Shown piece by piece: positions 11,443 through 16,033 of a stretch of DNA of 54,111 nucleotides (position 1 is the first letter of the stretch; the number at the start of each line of letters is the position of its first letter). Source of the DNA: Phycisphaerales bacterium UBA2421 (lineage in GTDB: Bacteria > Planctomycetota > Phycisphaerae > Tepidisphaerales > Tepidisphaeraceae). The stretch spans positions 141,863 through 195,973 of the forward strand of contig DDRH01000062.1 of the NCBI GenBank assembly GCA_002343075.1, written 5' to 3'. A program made the translations under genes and the position numbers. The notes below the pieces were generated by a model. It saw only the letters and a program-made list of their open reading frames with translations. It did not search any database and was not told where the DNA came from.

Positions 11443-13422
11443 CTACTCGAGGTAGGTGTACCCTTCAAGTCCGTTTTCATAGAACTTCAACAGCAACCGG
11501 GCTTCCTCAGTGCTGAGCTTCTGATCCTTCAAAGCCCGCTCGACTGTCTTGAACATGGCGCGCTTGAGGTCGTCGGCGTCGAACTGTACATAATTCAACA
11601 CCTCGCGCACTGTGTCCCCTTCAATAACTTCATCAATGCTGAACGAGCCGGTGTCGTCAATAGTCACATGCACAGCGTTTGTATCGCCGAGAAGGTTATG
11701 AAGGTCCCCTAGGATCTCCTGATAAGCCCCCACCAGAAACACACCAAGCAGGTAATCGGTGTTGTCATAGGGATGAAGTTCGAGAACGCTCTTCACATCG
11801 CGCTGGTCGATAAACCGATCCACCTTTCCGTCGCTGTCGCAGGTGATGTCGGCAAGGATGCCCCGGCAGGTAGGTTCCTGCTTGAGCTTGTGAATCGGCA
11901 TGATCGGGAACAACTGATCGATCGCCCAACTGTCGGGCATCGATTGAAAGATGCTCATATTGCAGAAATAAGTATCCGAAAGCTGCGCCTCCAGCCCGCA
12001 GAACTCTTCGGGAACGTAATCCATCCTGCGGACGATGTTGAGGATTTTCGCTGCCAGACCAAAGTAGAGCTTCTCCGCCAGGCTTCGCTGCTCAAGATTG
12101 CAATAGCCGAGGTTAAACAGGCTGAGCATGCTCTCTTTGGCGAGCTGCGCGTCGTGATAATACTCGGTGAAATTCGTCTCATTTACGCCGACAAACGCGT
12201 CAAAAAGGTTAATCACTGGCTGAGGCATGGTCTTTCGCTGCTCTGCCGTGAGTTCGACCGGGAGATCAAAGCGGTTGAACCCGCTCCAGCCGATGACGTT
12301 GAAGACCAGCACGCTGTGATATGCCACCATCGCCCGGCCCGATTCGCTGAGAATGGTGGGGTGTTCTACGCCGGCACCATCGCAGATTTCCTTGATGTGA
12401 AAAACCACGTCGTTGGCGTATTCCTGCAGGCCATAGTTAATGCTCGATTCGTAGCTGCTCTTCGACCCGTCATAATCGACGCCCAAGCCGCCGCCGACGT
12501 CGATCATCTTTAAGCCGGCACCGAGATTCTGTAACTCGGTGTAAACCCTTCCCAGTTCAATGATTGCAGCTTTGATGTTGTGAATGTTGTTGATCTGGCT
12601 GCCCAGATGAAAATGCAGCATATTGAGACAATCGCCCATGCCATGGGCGCGGAGATATACCAGTGCGTCCATCACCTCGCTGATAAACAGTCCAAACTTG
12701 GATCGAACTCCGCCGGACTCCTGCCATCGCCCGGCACCCCGGGCCGAAAGCTTCACGCGCACCCCGATACTTGGGGTGACGTTATGCAGCTTGGCGTATT
12801 TCACCAGCAGTTCCAGCTCGCTGAACTTTTCAACGACGGGGATGATGTTTTTGCCGATCTTGGTCGCGAGAATGACGGCTTCGATGAATTCATCATCCTT
12901 AAAACCATTACAGACGATCGGCGTTTCGTTGTCTTGCACGACCGCCATCACTGCCAGCAGTTCGGGTTTGCTGCCTGCTTCAAGACCGAACTTGTAGGCT
13001 TTGCCAAACCCGTGAATCTCCTCCACCACATGCCGCTGTTGGTTGACCTTGATCGGGTAGAGGCAGCGGTAGGTTCCCTTGTAATCATGCTCCCGGATGG
13101 CGTTGGCGAACGCATCGTGGAGTTTTTGCACACGGTGCTGCAAAATGTCTGTAAATCGAAGCAGGACAGGCAGTTGGATATCTCGCTCGCGGAGTTCGTC
13201 CACGAGCTTTTTCAAATCAATATTGAGTGCCGGGTTCTGAGTCGGATGAACCGCGACATGCCCGTGGTCGTTCACGGAAAAGTAGCCCTGGCCCCAGTTT
13301 CGGATGCCATATAGCCGAGCGGCGTCTTCGATCGTCCAGGTCTTAGGTTGCATGGGGCTAGCAAGGCCATTGCGGTTGCCGGCGGGAACCGAAGGAAGAA
13401 CCGGCTGCGCGTGCGTGGTCAT
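11443..13422 (-). CDS. speA: Biosynthetic arginine decarboxylase (PLP-dependent)
   Basis: Converts arginine to agmatine and CO2, the first step of putrescine synthesis by the agmatine route. The protein has 659 residues from the chosen start, the normal size for SpeA. The PLP lysine is Lys125 in CLYPIKVNQQ. Further SpeA hallmarks are GLEAGSKPELLAVMA, HFHLGSQINNIHNIK, IDVGGGLGVDYDGS and SESGRAMVAYHSVLVFNV. The frame is open to 13581, but that would overlap aguA; the ATG at 13422 is upstream of a typical SpeA N-terminus (TIEDAARLYGIRNWGQGYFSV). The next step, aguA, lies 118 bp upstream on the same strand, which makes a pathway cluster. Confidence 0.96.
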   Translation of the reverse strand: MTTHAQPVLPSVPAGNRNGLASPMQPKTWTIEDAARLYGIRNWGQGYFSVNDHGHVAVHPTQNPALNIDLKKLVDELRERDIQLPVLLRFTDILQHRVQKLHDAFANAIREHDYKGTYRCLYPIKVNQQRHVVEEIHGFGKAYKFGLEAGSKPELLAVMAVVQDNETPIVCNGFKDDEFIEAVILATKIGKNIIPVVEKFSELELLVKYAKLHNVTPSIGVRVKLSARGAGRWQESGGVRSKFGLFISEVMDALVYLRAHGMGDCLNMLHFHLGSQINNIHNIKAAIIELGRVYTELQNLGAGLKMIDVGGGLGVDYDGSKSSYESSINYGLQEYANDVVFHIKEICDGAGVEHPTILSESGRAMVAYHSVLVFNVIGWSGFNRFDLPVELTAEQRKTMPQPVINLFDAFVGVNETNFTEYYHDAQLAKESMLSLFNLGYCNLEQRSLAEKLYFGLAAKILNIVRRMDYVPEEFCGLEAQLSDTYFCNMSIFQSMPDSWAIDQLFPIMPIHKLKQEPTCRGILADITCDSDGKVDRFIDQRDVKSVLELHPYDNTDYLLGVFLVGAYQEILGDLHNLLGDTNAVHVTIDDTGSFSIDEVIEGDTVREVLNYVQFDADDLKRAMFKTVERALKDQKLSTEEARLLLKFYENGLEGYTYLE

Positions 13423-13540
13423 CTTTGTTTCAAACTCCAAAACGCCGGATTCCCGCCCGGCATGTGTGAATGGTATCAGGTTTGCGCACAAGTCAAGTAA
13501 ATCAAAAATTTTTTGGCCCAGCGAGCACGTGCCCGCCGCC

Positions 13541-14626
13541 CTAAAACTTTGGCTGTTGCTGCGTGAAGCAGTGAATCGCACCGAGGCCCCAGATCAGGTC
13601 GGTGCAATCCACGCCGATCACTTCGTGCTTTGGACAAAGCGATTGGAGAATGTCGATTGCCTTCTTATCCGTCTTCTTCTTGCGAAATGTCGGCATCAGG
13701 ATAGCGCCGTTCACAAAGTAAAAATTCGCATAACTCGCCGGCAACCGCTGGCGATCCACTTCTACGATGCCCGGCGTCGGGAGTTCGACGATATGAAACG
13801 GCTTTCCGTCCTGATCCCGCGCGCCGTTTAGCCGCTTGAGGTTCTCCTGCAGCGGCTCAAAATTGGCGTCGGATTTGTCGTGTTCGACGATTGTGACGAT
13901 TGTGTTGTCGTTGACAAACCGCGACAGGTCGTCCACATGCCCGTCTGTGTCATCGCCTTGAATGCCGTCGTCCAGCCACACCACATGCTTCTGCCCGTAA
14001 TACTCCTTCAAGTAGCGCTCCACTTCCCACTCTTTCAGCAGTGGGTTGCGATTACTGTTGAGCAGCACTGACTCCGTCGTGAGCACTGTGCCTTTACCAT
14101 TGAAATCAACGGCGCCGCCTTCCATGACGATCTTGGGATAAAAGACGGGGAGATCAAGCAATTCAGCGATTTCAGTCGGCACAGCGTCGTCGTCGTCCCA
14201 ACCGTCATACTTCTGGCCCCATGCGTTGAAAACCCAATCAACCACCGCCGCCTCAGTTTTGCCGCGGAGGCCCTTGCGCAGGACAAACGCCGGGCCATGA
14301 TCCCGGCACCAGCTTTCGTTGGTCTTGATGTGGTAGCACTGCACGTTGTTGGTTGGGACTTTGTGCTCCTTCAAAGTCCGGAGCACGATTACCTCGTAGT
14401 TATAGTTCTCCACGAGGATGTTGACCGTCTCCCGCTTGGAGATCTCCTTGATGATGCGGCAGATGTTGGGAACGACGTGCTCGTACCGATCTGGAAACGA
14501 CGCTGCCTCCGGCCGGGGCCAACTCATCCATGTCGCGGCGTGCGGATACCACTCCGGCGGAAAGCTGTACCCCAACTGATTGGGCGTCCCGCGGGTGATG
14601 ACTTTTAAGGTGGCTACTTTTTCCAT
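13541..14626 (-). CDS. aguA: Agmatine deiminase
   Basis: Hydrolyses agmatine to N-carbamoylputrescine and ammonia. The 361-residue protein has the guanidino-group hydrolase fold, with the substrate-binding segment ESWCRDHGPAFVL, the catalytic histidine in DDTDGHVDDLSRF, and the nucleophile Cys353 in GAIHCFTQQQP at the C-terminus. Length is normal for the family. It lies between speA and aguB on the same strand. Translation begins at 14626, just 16 bp past the inverted repeat that bounds the GxxExxY unit. All catalytic residues are present, so it should be active. Confidence 0.96.
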   Translation of the reverse strand: MEKVATLKVITRGTPNQLGYSFPPEWYPHAATWMSWPRPEAASFPDRYEHVVPNICRIIKEISKRETVNILVENYNYEVIVLRTLKEHKVPTNNVQCYHIKTNESWCRDHGPAFVLRKGLRGKTEAAVVDWVFNAWGQKYDGWDDDDAVPTEIAELLDLPVFYPKIVMEGGAVDFNGKGTVLTTESVLLNSNRNPLLKEWEVERYLKEYYGQKHVVWLDDGIQGDDTDGHVDDLSRFVNDNTIVTIVEHDKSDANFEPLQENLKRLNGARDQDGKPFHIVELPTPGIVEVDRQRLPASYANFYFVNGAILMPTFRKKKTDKKAIDILQSLCPKHEVIGVDCTDLIWGLGAIHCFTQQQPKF

Positions 14627-14642
14627 GCGATTACCAAAGACT

Positions 14643-15106
14643 GCCCACGAATGGACACGAATAAGACACGAATGAAGAGATCAGAGTACAAGGCGCTGCC
14701 AGTCTAGCCGACCCGGGTCACCGAAGTTGATGAGCACGCCTACTTTCATTCTTGTTGCGGCCATGTAGTTGAGTATCTGAGCTTCTTCCTTGCTCGTAAG
14801 CCGCTCCATTACCTTGATTTCAACCACGACCTTCTCATAGCACAGCAGATCCGCCTTGTAACGACATTTCAGTTCACGGCCCTTGTAAAAGACCGGCAGC
14901 AACACCTGCGGTAAAAATGGAATCGACCGAAGGCCAAGTTCGATCTCCATCGCCTCCTGATAAACCGCTTCAAGAAAATTCGCCTTCAGTTCATTCTGCA
15001 CCGCCATCGCCGCCCCCACAATCTCATAGACTTCCCGTGCAAGAATCAGCTCCGGCACGCGCAACTCCTTTCCCCATTCGTGTTTCATTGGTGAAGATTC
15101 GTGGGC
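14643..15106. mobile_element. GxxExxY cassette bounded by inverted CACGAAT repeats (candidate mobile unit)
   Basis: A 464-bp segment begins with GCCCACGAAT (14643-14652) and ends with its exact inverse ATTCGTGGGC (15097-15106). At the left end CACGAAT occurs three times at 14646, 14656 and 14667 (steps of 10 and 11 nt); at the right end ATTCGTG occurs at 15076 and 15097. The unit contains only the GxxExxY gene and fills the aguB-aguA gap, starting 6 bp from the aguB stop and ending 16 bp from the aguA start. The repeats are seen directly; mobility is inference, as no transposase or target duplication is evident. Confidence 0.5.
14681..15088 (-). CDS. GxxExxY family protein
   Basis: A 135-residue protein of the GxxExxY family, small nuclease-like proteins of unknown role. 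The namesake motif is FLEAVYQEAMEIEL near residue 39, with Asn where the first Gly is usual. A PDDEXK-like core follows: YKADLLCYEKVVVEIKV (Asp, then Glu-x-Lys). It interrupts the putrescine genes but has no evident part in that pathway. Its first codons (MKHEWG) are themselves encoded by one copy of the flanking CACGAATGG repeat, so gene and repeat are physically joined. No ribosome site stands out before the ATG. Confidence 0.85.
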   Translation of the reverse strand: MKHEWGKELRVPELILAREVYEIVGAAMAVQNELKANFLEAVYQEAMEIELGLRSIPFLPQVLLPVFYKGRELKCRYKADLLCYEKVVVEIKVMERLTSKEEAQILNYMAATRMKVGVLINFGDPGRLDWQRLVL

Positions 15107-15112
15107 AAATCT

Positions 15113-16033
15113 CTACCCGATGAACCGTTTCGTCAAATCCCCATAAGCATCCACCCGTCGGTCGCGGAGGAACGGCCAGTGGGTGCGATGGTAATCCACC
15201 AAGTCCAGGTCGCATTCGGTGATCAACACCTCCTCTTCTGCCACGGAAGCCTTCGCCAAGATTCGCCCGCCGGGGGCGGCGACGAAGCTTTGGCCCCAGA
15301 ACTCGATGCCGTCGGTACTAACCGGCTTACCGTCCGGGCCGAGCACATGCTCATGGCCGATTCGATTGGGAACGGCCACAAAACAGCCATTGGCGACCGC
15401 GTGGCTTCGCTGGATGACTTCCCAGCTTTCATGCTGCCACCGGCCATGCTCGGCCTTTTCCGCGGGGTGCCAGCCGATCGCGGTGGGGTAGAACAGGATC
15501 GCCGCGCCTTGTAACGCGGTCAGCCGTGCTGCTTCGGGGTACCATTGATCCCAGCAGATCAGCACGCCGATTTTGGCATACTTCGTCTGAAATGCCTTGA
15601 AGCCCAGATCGCCAGGGGTGAAGTAAAACTTCTCGTAGTAAAGTGGGTCGTCAGGGATATGCATCTTTCGATACATCCCGGCTACCGAACCGTCGGCGTC
15701 AAACACTATCGCGGTGTTGTGATACAGCCCGGAGGCGCGCTTCTCGAAGAGCGACGCGACGATGACCACCTTATGCTTCTTCGCGAGCGTGGCGAATGCT
15801 TTGCTGCTGGGTCCGGGAATTGTCTCGGCGAGCTTGAAGCAATTGTAATCCTCTGACTGGCAAAAATACTGCGAACAGAAAAGCTCCTGCGTACAGATGA
15901 TCTGTGCGCCCGACCGGGCAGCGCGTTCGACGAGCGCCATCTGCTTCTTCCGATTGGCCGACACGTTTGCGGTGCAGGCCATTTGCGTCACGCCGATCTG
16001 AATCCGTCGGCGCGTACTGATTTTCTTTGCCAT
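15113..16033 (-). CDS. aguB: N-carbamoylputrescine amidase
   Basis: Hydrolyses N-carbamoylputrescine to putrescine, CO2 and ammonia, the last step of the agmatine route. This 306-residue nitrilase-superfamily protein has the full catalytic triad: Glu50 in ICTQELFCSQYFC, Lys123 in YRKMHIPDDP and Cys160 in GVLICWDQWYPEAARL. The long loop HPAEKAEHGRWQHESW is typical of AguB rather than of other nitrilases. AAAGGAA stands about 8 bases before the ATG. With aguA and speA it completes the pathway, although a GxxExxY unit now separates it from aguA. The 182 bp upstream contain GC-rich inverted repeats and no gene. Confidence 0.96.
   Translation of the reverse strand: MAKKISTRRRIQIGVTQMACTANVSANRKKQMALVERAARSGAQIICTQELFCSQYFCQSEDYNCFKLAETIPGPSSKAFATLAKKHKVVIVASLFEKRASGLYHNTAIVFDADGSVAGMYRKMHIPDDPLYYEKFYFTPGDLGFKAFQTKYAKIGVLICWDQWYPEAARLTALQGAAILFYPTAIGWHPAEKAEHGRWQHESWEVIQRSHAVANGCFVAVPNRIGHEHVLGPDGKPVSTDGIEFWGQSFVAAPGGRILAKASVAEEEVLITECDLDLVDYHRTHWPFLRDRRVDAYGDLTKRFIG

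Follow-up and report, generated by a model that had tools for sequence, protein, structure and literature searches.

A GxxExxY gene between inverted arrays of short repeats: a possible REPtron-like element in bacteria

We analyzed a 54,111-nt stretch of DNA from Phycisphaerales bacterium UBA2421 (contig DDRH01000062.1, positions 141,863 to 195,973), hereafter the window, in which a 466-bp unit at 14642-15107 carries a gene of the GxxExxY family between two inverted arrays of short repeats. To our knowledge, GxxExxY is a widespread protein family without known function. The unit lies between the genes aguB and aguA and consists of the following parts.

14642..15107, no strand assigned: the whole unit, GxxExxY gene between inverted arrays, arms 400 nt apart
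14642..14674, plus strand: arm downstream of the gene, TGCC and three CACGAAT (14646-14652, 14656-14662, 14667-14673)
15075..15107, minus strand: arm upstream of the gene, TGCC and CACGAAT (15103-15097), CACCAAT (15093-15087), CACGAAT (15082-15076); repeat bounds read from the sequence
14681..15058, minus strand: GxxExxY / PDDEXK_3 protein, 125 aa, GTG start (preferred), AAAGGAG at 15071-15065
14681..15088, minus strand: the same GxxExxY frame from an upstream ATG, 135 aa, first residues overlapping the arm

The two arms (14642-14674 and 15075-15107) form a 33-nt inverted repeat that is 82% complementary and ends in a perfect 11-nt tip (TGCCCACGAAT/ATTCGTGGGCA). The inverted ends GCCCACGAAT...ATTCGTGGGC that an initial annotation, made from the letters alone, had placed at 14643-15106 are present and belong to this wider match. 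Each arm holds three 7-nt repeats; five of the six read CACGAAT and one is degenerate (CACCAAT). As a single 7-mer, CACGAAT has an ordinary count in the window (7 copies against 9.7 expected), and five of the seven lie in the unit, at both of its ends as that annotation had said. Three identical 7-mers in a row, spaced 8-11 nt apart, occur only once in the window, at 14646, and 0 of 20 simulated sequences contained such a triplet. The arms align with a score of 36, while the maximum among 2000 random intervals was 30. A stricter scan (three CRCNRAK repeats with 1-3-nt spacers) gave no match in the window because the starts of its repeats, 10 and 11 nt apart, are spaced slightly wide for the GxxExxY family.

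The protein between the arms is a predicted RecB/Cas4-like PD-(D/E)XK nuclease. The 135-aa frame matches TIGR04256 (E 1.1e-36, 125.7 bits, cut-off 35) and PF13366 (E 3.8e-36, 124.4 bits, cut-off 22); at E ≤ 0.001 the PDDEXK_3 (Pfam) and GxxExxY (NCBIfam) models are its only matches, with no HUH (Y1) domain among them. The predicted structure has a pLDDT (predicted local distance difference test) of 91.8 and 4ic1 heads both structure-match lists; a PDB sequence search with the protein gave no match at E 10. The glycine of the GxxExxY motif is replaced by N at residue 37. It is present in 158 of 161 aligned proteins, a count that leans upward because the in-house hidden Markov model used to locate genes was trained on proteins chosen by a GxxExxY-plus-ExK expression and the alignment rows come mostly from loci with arms. 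Family membership by model stands despite N37, because all catalytic residues are kept (E40, D80, E90, K92, Q104 and Y108, that is E, D, ExK and QxxxY). Cas4 has a four-cysteine cluster, which the window protein lacks since it has just two cysteines, and its neighbors, unlike those of Cas4 or lambda-exonuclease-type proteins, are polyamine genes. Plasmid or phage cargo was rejected as an identity for the gene: with the window protein as the one query at E 1e-5, from which distant members may escape, 8 of 72,556 plasmid and 0 of 50,697 phage records matched.

The initial annotation had also proposed that one repeat copy encodes the first residues of the protein (KHEW). These residues can be read from the upstream ATG, but the reading is doubtful and probably a gene-calling effect. 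The upstream array is probably untranslated, because record P0001, 99% identical to the window protein, is 125 aa long, the 10 N-terminal residues of the 135-aa frame are unconserved with a mean pLDDT of 47, and AAAGGAG stands 6 nt upstream of the GTG at 15058.

Matched inverted arrays accompany the gene across the family. Arms scoring at least 31 were found at 193 of 222 GxxExxY loci (157/182 for the first three sets described below and 36/40 for the fourth), which are not independent, some being orthologues. The same score was reached by 1 of 295 random intervals and by none of 23 aguB flanks (maximum 25; 4 of 27 aguB loci were left out). The family occurs in 43 of 61 related genomes, with 92 matches; among 91 loci from these genomes, 87 had long enough flanks, and of these 74 reached the 95% level, and 64 also the 99% level, of a null built from mismatched flanks, the left and right ones being taken from different loci. 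For 29 loci from several phyla the mean arm score was 49.0 against 21.0 for the null, and 22 exceeded the 95% level. Further sets, hand-picked from the listed matches in multi-copy and Flavobacterium genomes, gave 60 of 64 and 36 of 40 loci at a score of at least 31. Left out were L018 (same place as L001), L027, L047, L064, L091 and L102 (short flanks) and L282 (coordinates equal to those of L023; genome G105 appears to be G014); one match at G050:C13 was not in the set. The window genome itself has four GxxExxY loci, each with inverted end arrays of differing repeats (CACGAAG, CACGAAT, CGCCAAG and ACACGACG-like).

Short repeats near a small gene could be an artefact of chance or composition, and the single 7-mer CACGAAT is indeed not enriched in the window. 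Against this stand the random intervals, the aguB flanks, the simulations and a reversed pattern found 0 times in 121 genomes. We rejected chance, whose probability is negligible, and regard it as practically certain that the unit is real and family-wide.

Some loci depart from the rule. Those in the related-genome set where no arms were seen by eye include L093-L095, L096-L098 (short or fragment matches), L074, L075 and L056. L093, L094 and L095 belong to a distant GxxExxY subfamily that occupies one conserved site in three congeneric genomes, possibly having settled there as an ordinary gene. A GxxExxY copy of the window genome, L004 (G000:C42:160375-160719), has an internal stop (TAA) and has retained its arms.

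As the initial annotation had stated, similar strings flank GxxExxY genes in other phyla, with CACGAAT arrays at L172 (Nitrosomonas), L387 and L388 (Terriglobia) and L294 (Chloracidobacterium). Most GxxExxY genes do not carry CACGAAT, however, but matched arrays of other repeats instead. The two tests that it had set itself, whether all relatives carry the gene at the same site and whether other GxxExxY genes lack CACGAAT, were too narrow for this reason. In 104 arm pairs (score of at least 28, from 116 usable loci) the regular repeat is C[AG]C[ACGT][AG]A[GT], at spacings of 8, 9 or 10 nt in 262 of 297 counted; exactly three repeats occur in 104 of 208 arms, and none or one in 39. Clades outside this pattern use ACAGGAT, CATGAAG or CATTAAG. 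CACGAAT as the repeat of the whole family was rejected, each clade having its own. Before the first repeat, the outer tip leans weakly to TTAAC; the profile of 268 arms reads T-T-A-A/G-C, not GTAG.

The spelling of the repeat varies among loci yet is common to both arms of one locus, and in our sequence comparisons its changes go with the protein tree much more closely than with the host. The last-letter class (66 AG, 28 AT; arms scoring at least 28, with 8 unclassed rows not counted) required 4 changes on a tree of 102 proteins against 24.4 when shuffled, and 0 of 500 shuffles were as low, the tree being only roughly resolved because 41 of its 99 inner branches are open. Arm similarity, compared for 149 of the 157 armed loci, rose between different genomes from 14.6 at 30-40% protein identity through 17.2, 22.5 and 32.9 to 58.2 at >70%. 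Pairs from the same genome gave 15.2, 18.2, 20.7, 27.2 and 50.7 in the same bins (3-74 pairs per bin), so the host adds little. Below 60% identity, different-genome pairs had a Spearman correlation of 0.275, and the maximum in 300 permutations was 0.055. CACGAAT also arises in distant clades, some proteins with CACGAAT arms being just 32-45% identical. A protein that acts on its own repeats would be expected to show such tracking, and we consider it likely that the protein recognizes its arrays.

A second genome, G015, carries a unit at the same aguB-aguA site (67% homology to the window over 2332 bp; proteins 60% identical). The two share identical tips (TTGCCCACGAA) but not repeats: where the window has CACGAAT, with one CACCAAT, G015 has CACGAAG, with one CACGAAA. 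The last letter differs in all six, T against G in five. Either the repeats and arms have been homogenized with one another, or a second unit was inserted at this site. Concerted rewriting of all the repeats of an element is a puzzle beyond simple point mutation. In a further genome, G025, one arm-like array lies downstream of aguB and is followed by the contig end.

One pair of loci gives a direct sign that the arm tips may bound a copied unit. L387 and L388, both in a Terriglobia genome (G080), are 87.6% identical in a 428-bp stretch of DNA; this homology begins at one arm's outer tip (GAACCACGAAT) and ends at that of the other arm (ATTCGTGGTTC). Their flanks are unrelated, and L388 lies in the center of a 12-bp palindrome. 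G080 was chosen for its 20 GxxExxY matches, which comprise four full-length copies, a fragment of 47 positions and 15 C-terminal remnants. The remnants (L391-L405; 42-43 C-terminal model positions) are dispersed, and both arms are kept in five of seven inspected. Units nested in the middle of a palindrome or of an array hairpin were seen at L388 (oriented 1441-1452 and its mirror), L191, L215, L218 and L347, hinting at a preference for hairpin centers. At the alaS-ABC site of Flavobacterium, GxxExxY units and gene-less NNCTAAG arrays (L307, L308, L310, L312-L315 and L318) alternate between species. In the right flank of L302, an alaS-site unit, the region of the right arm appears tandemly duplicated with a period of about 130 bp (by eye).

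Arrays also occur without the gene. A scan for three CACGAAT repeats in the genomes of 84,980 species found at least 117 stretches, of which we examined 80, some lying at tile edges. A GxxExxY gene was within about 1 kb of the array at three of the 80 (L172, L188, L213). At 20 there was an exact two-repeat inverse array within 1.5 kb, 18 of these 28-154 bp away, and degenerate second arms were seen by eye in others among 30 inspected loci. Flavobacterium genomes hold up to 55 array matches each. For 20 Flavobacterium units a second arm could be aligned in all 20 (three scoring under 28); 19 are 61-269 bp long, and 15 overlap no stop-to-stop frame of 80 codons. Their loops are unrelated, except in units with a nested CACAGATT-type inner hairpin or half of it, a class that has its own gene-bearing unit, L458. 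Four genomes hold gene-bearing units of the CACGAATT class, namely L451 and the orthologues L479, L496 and L504, which share one site. The arm of L496 (GCCACGAATTTCACGAATTTTCACGAATT) equals that of gene-less hairpins in the same genus (G152). In the window genome we found one gene-less unit, 171 bp long (C55:118080-118250), with the 11-nt tips of the window unit.

At the level of genomes, the gene is present in 45 of 50 with a CACGAAT array, chosen among those behind the 80 stretches, and most of the 50 have 2-12 GxxExxY matches. The five without it include a Streptomyces with a long simple run as its array. Of 121 Flavobacterium genomes, 29 have arrays and every one of these has the gene, against 69 of the remaining 92 (P 0.00085); this association is weak evidence because the arrays are concentrated in large genomes, which confounds it.

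Arms shared between gene-less and gene-bearing units, as in L496 and G152 or in the tips of the 171-bp unit, would also be seen if the protein were a homing endonuclease that cuts gene-less arrays of its own spelling, break repair then copying the gene in, with the arrays spreading by other means. PD-(D/E)XK homing endonucleases exist, and 3r3p, which we take to be the I-Bth0305I domain, a homing endonuclease, appears weakly among the structure matches. On the other hand, homing endonucleases are mostly found within introns or inteins, the flanks of L387 and L388 are unrelated, and homing leaves both the dispersal of the hairpins and the concerted spelling of all repeats unexplained. We consider this explanation unlikely.

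The genes around the unit are as follows.

15113..16033, minus strand: aguB, N-carbamoylputrescine amidase, 5 nt outside the unit (TIGR03381 308.8 bits, below the 410 cut-off; PF00795)
13541..14626, minus strand: aguA, agmatine deiminase, 15 nt outside the unit (PF04371 E 5.6e-118; TIGR03380 267 bits, below the 382 cut-off)
11443..13581, minus strand: speA, arginine decarboxylase (TIGR01273 E 5e-233, match from residue 82; frame as listed, the true start probably lying further in)

The order of transcription on the minus strand is aguB, GxxExxY, aguA, speA, and the unit occupies the space from the aguB stop (15113) to the aguA start (14626), as the initial annotation had described; it is not inside an rRNA gene like a 23S rRNA intervening sequence. 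In line with a unit made up of the gene and its repeats, no GxxExxY gene was found at the aguB-aguA junction of 18 among 20 aguB loci that had an identified aguA. The strand of the unit folds 2.5 standard deviations better than shuffles, with the arms paired, and the gene begins just inside an arm. Both features would suit arms that are control elements, an operator or a messenger RNA stem, of a chromosomal nuclease gene, the gene-less hairpins being look-alikes; annotators of Geobacter in 2009 did term such pairs regulator binding sites (PMC2700814). This is improbable in view of the matched arms at both ends, the gene-less units with identical tips, the arm-tip boundaries of L387 and L388, and the 18 junctions without the gene. 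Rfam gave no match at gathering scores among six loci scanned. An intrinsic terminator was rejected too: the Flavobacterium hairpins have a T-run before and an A-run after the stem, the wrong way round.

The closest working analogue is the REPtron. PMC8266576 describes a TnpA-REP/RAYT nuclease beside cognate inverted repeats (repetitive extragenic palindromes, REP, or bacterial interspersed mosaic elements, BIME), with protein and repeat co-evolving, and REP repeats that far outnumber the gene, form inverse pairs around a variable linker and are mostly intergenic. The GxxExxY system resembles REPtrons in all these respects. In contrast, the TnpA-REP enzyme is of the HUH type and its substrate is a palindrome tagged with GTAG, whereas GxxExxY is of the PD-(D/E)XK type with arrays of about three 7-nt repeats; and TnpA-REP is mostly single-copy (PMC8266576), whereas GxxExxY is multi-copy in most of the 50 array genomes. 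Gene-less cognate repeats are many in Flavobacterium, as in REPtrons, and number one unit in the window genome.

Our best reading, to which we give a probability of about 0.5, is a REPtron-like element in which the gene of a PD-(D/E)XK nuclease lies between inverted arrays that the nuclease recognizes. The nuclease would bind the array, probably when the latter is in a cruciform or single-stranded hairpin form; with about three repeats in each arm, the nuclease may do so as a dimer or oligomer. A nick or cut at the outer tip or close to it, where TTAAC weakly precedes CRC, would then let the arms be copied to new sites, either together with the gene or alone, and the gene-less hairpins would be non-autonomous products. 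Binding, cutting at the arrays and driving their copying are what we infer for the protein; that it moves or copies its arrays has, in our estimate, slightly less than an even chance.

A number of observations weigh against this REPtron-like reading. Arms fall below the threshold at 29 of the 222 loci, and just 4 of the 29 multi-phylum loci exceed the 99% null, a level that is high (74) because orthologous Flavobacterium pairs inflate it. The co-divergence of arms and proteins could instead reflect joint inheritance without binding. In Flavobacterium, 69 of the 92 genomes without CACGAAT arrays carry the gene too, and genome size confounds the association of arrays and gene. Only one pair, L387 and L388, has arm-tip boundaries. 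Neither the alaS-ABC site of Flavobacterium nor the hairpin site of L340 yielded a clean empty site, and no target-site duplication was found in the loci inspected, among them the window unit and L387/L388 by eye. Eight species with alaS-ABC gaps of 266-347 bp carry array-like NNCTAAG hairpins, some nearly eroded. The L340 hairpin is old, inherited in about 26 of 29 readable loci, and its loops vary while its arms drift uncompensated (by eye). The loops of gene-less hairpins are unrelated, unlike those of a simple miniature inverted-repeat transposable element (MITE).

The multi-copy cases add to this list. The remnants of G080 are embedded in longer repeats whose ends are GAGCC/GGCTC-like, and some of the copies match each other over 735-1293 bp. 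Three Singulisphaera copies (L406-L408), 92-93% identical where compared, lie in a larger MITE-like repeat that ends near GGCTCCTC...GAAGAGCC (GGCTC/GAGCC-like). One possibility for these observations, and for the place of L388 in mid-palindrome, is that the unit is a passenger, carried by DDE transposons or MITEs or settling in existing host hairpins. As this leaves the arms at 193 of 222 loci and their co-divergence with the protein unexplained, we regard it as rather improbable. Of the small mobile unit that the initial annotation had proposed, the gene and its repeats do form a unit, and one pair is homologous from tip to tip; a target-site duplication or clean empty site was not found, and two multi-copy cases move inside larger repeats.

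A second, unrelated family has the same architecture in the same genomes. At loci of the four-helix-bundle 23S_rRNA_IVP protein (PF05635; L099-L128), matched inverted arrays exceed the 99% null at 22 of 29 (mean 48.0 against 19.2), with 7-8-nt repeats such as GTCAGAA, TAGCCTT and GGGTATC. Protein and array correlate only weakly in this family (27 loci; Spearman 0.14, a value reached by 0.033 of permutations).

Repeats of this kind have by themselves been seen before. PMC2700814 lists "predicted global regulator binding sites" of Geobacter metallireducens in classes 1-3, opposite-strand pairs of 3-5 tandem 7-9-nt units at a distance that is variable for classes 1 and 2. Class 2 there is three TCTCCGTS, on the other strand SACGGAGA, a CRCNRAG-type unit like those of GxxExxY arrays, and class 1 is four GTTGCTYN, resembling the arm of the four-helix-bundle locus L106. 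That text treats one genome, terms the pairs regulator sites and, where available, makes no tie to GxxExxY or four-helix-bundle genes. TAACTGA heptamers of Beggiatoaceae, cyanobacteria and Bacteroidetes are interpreted as possible translational signals in PMC4679880. MITEs such as BrickBuilt (PMC4596501) are alike in their short intergenic units, inverted ends and tandem repeats, whereas here the tandem repeats form the ends and the loops are unconserved. In a search that covered few subscription-journal papers, we found none linking GxxExxY to such repeats; the name GxxExxY occurred in two papers, and an exact-string search with six array sequences returned one unrelated paper. Within the searchable literature, neither the PD-(D/E)XK enzyme type nor array-type ends fit a described element; what we propose works like a REPtron.

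Tentatively, and at less than even odds, we suggest that inverted arrays of short repeats mark a class of bacterial elements, mobile or repeat-generating, that is very widespread and has gone unrecognized. GxxExxY and 23S_rRNA_IVP proteins would be at least two of their autonomous partners, each clade having its own repeat and all repeats being rewritten together, and heptamer and octamer repeats such as those of Geobacter would be gene-less products. The short tandemly repeated repetitive (STRR) sequences of cyanobacteria are a possible further case. Through the tie to co-diverging repeats, the GxxExxY family gains a substrate that can be tested, and the unexplained hairpins of short repeats gain a candidate for the protein that makes them. 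We know of no PD-(D/E)XK nuclease fold at work in a REP-like system; if the REPtron-like reading is true, this would be such a system on a different nuclease fold.
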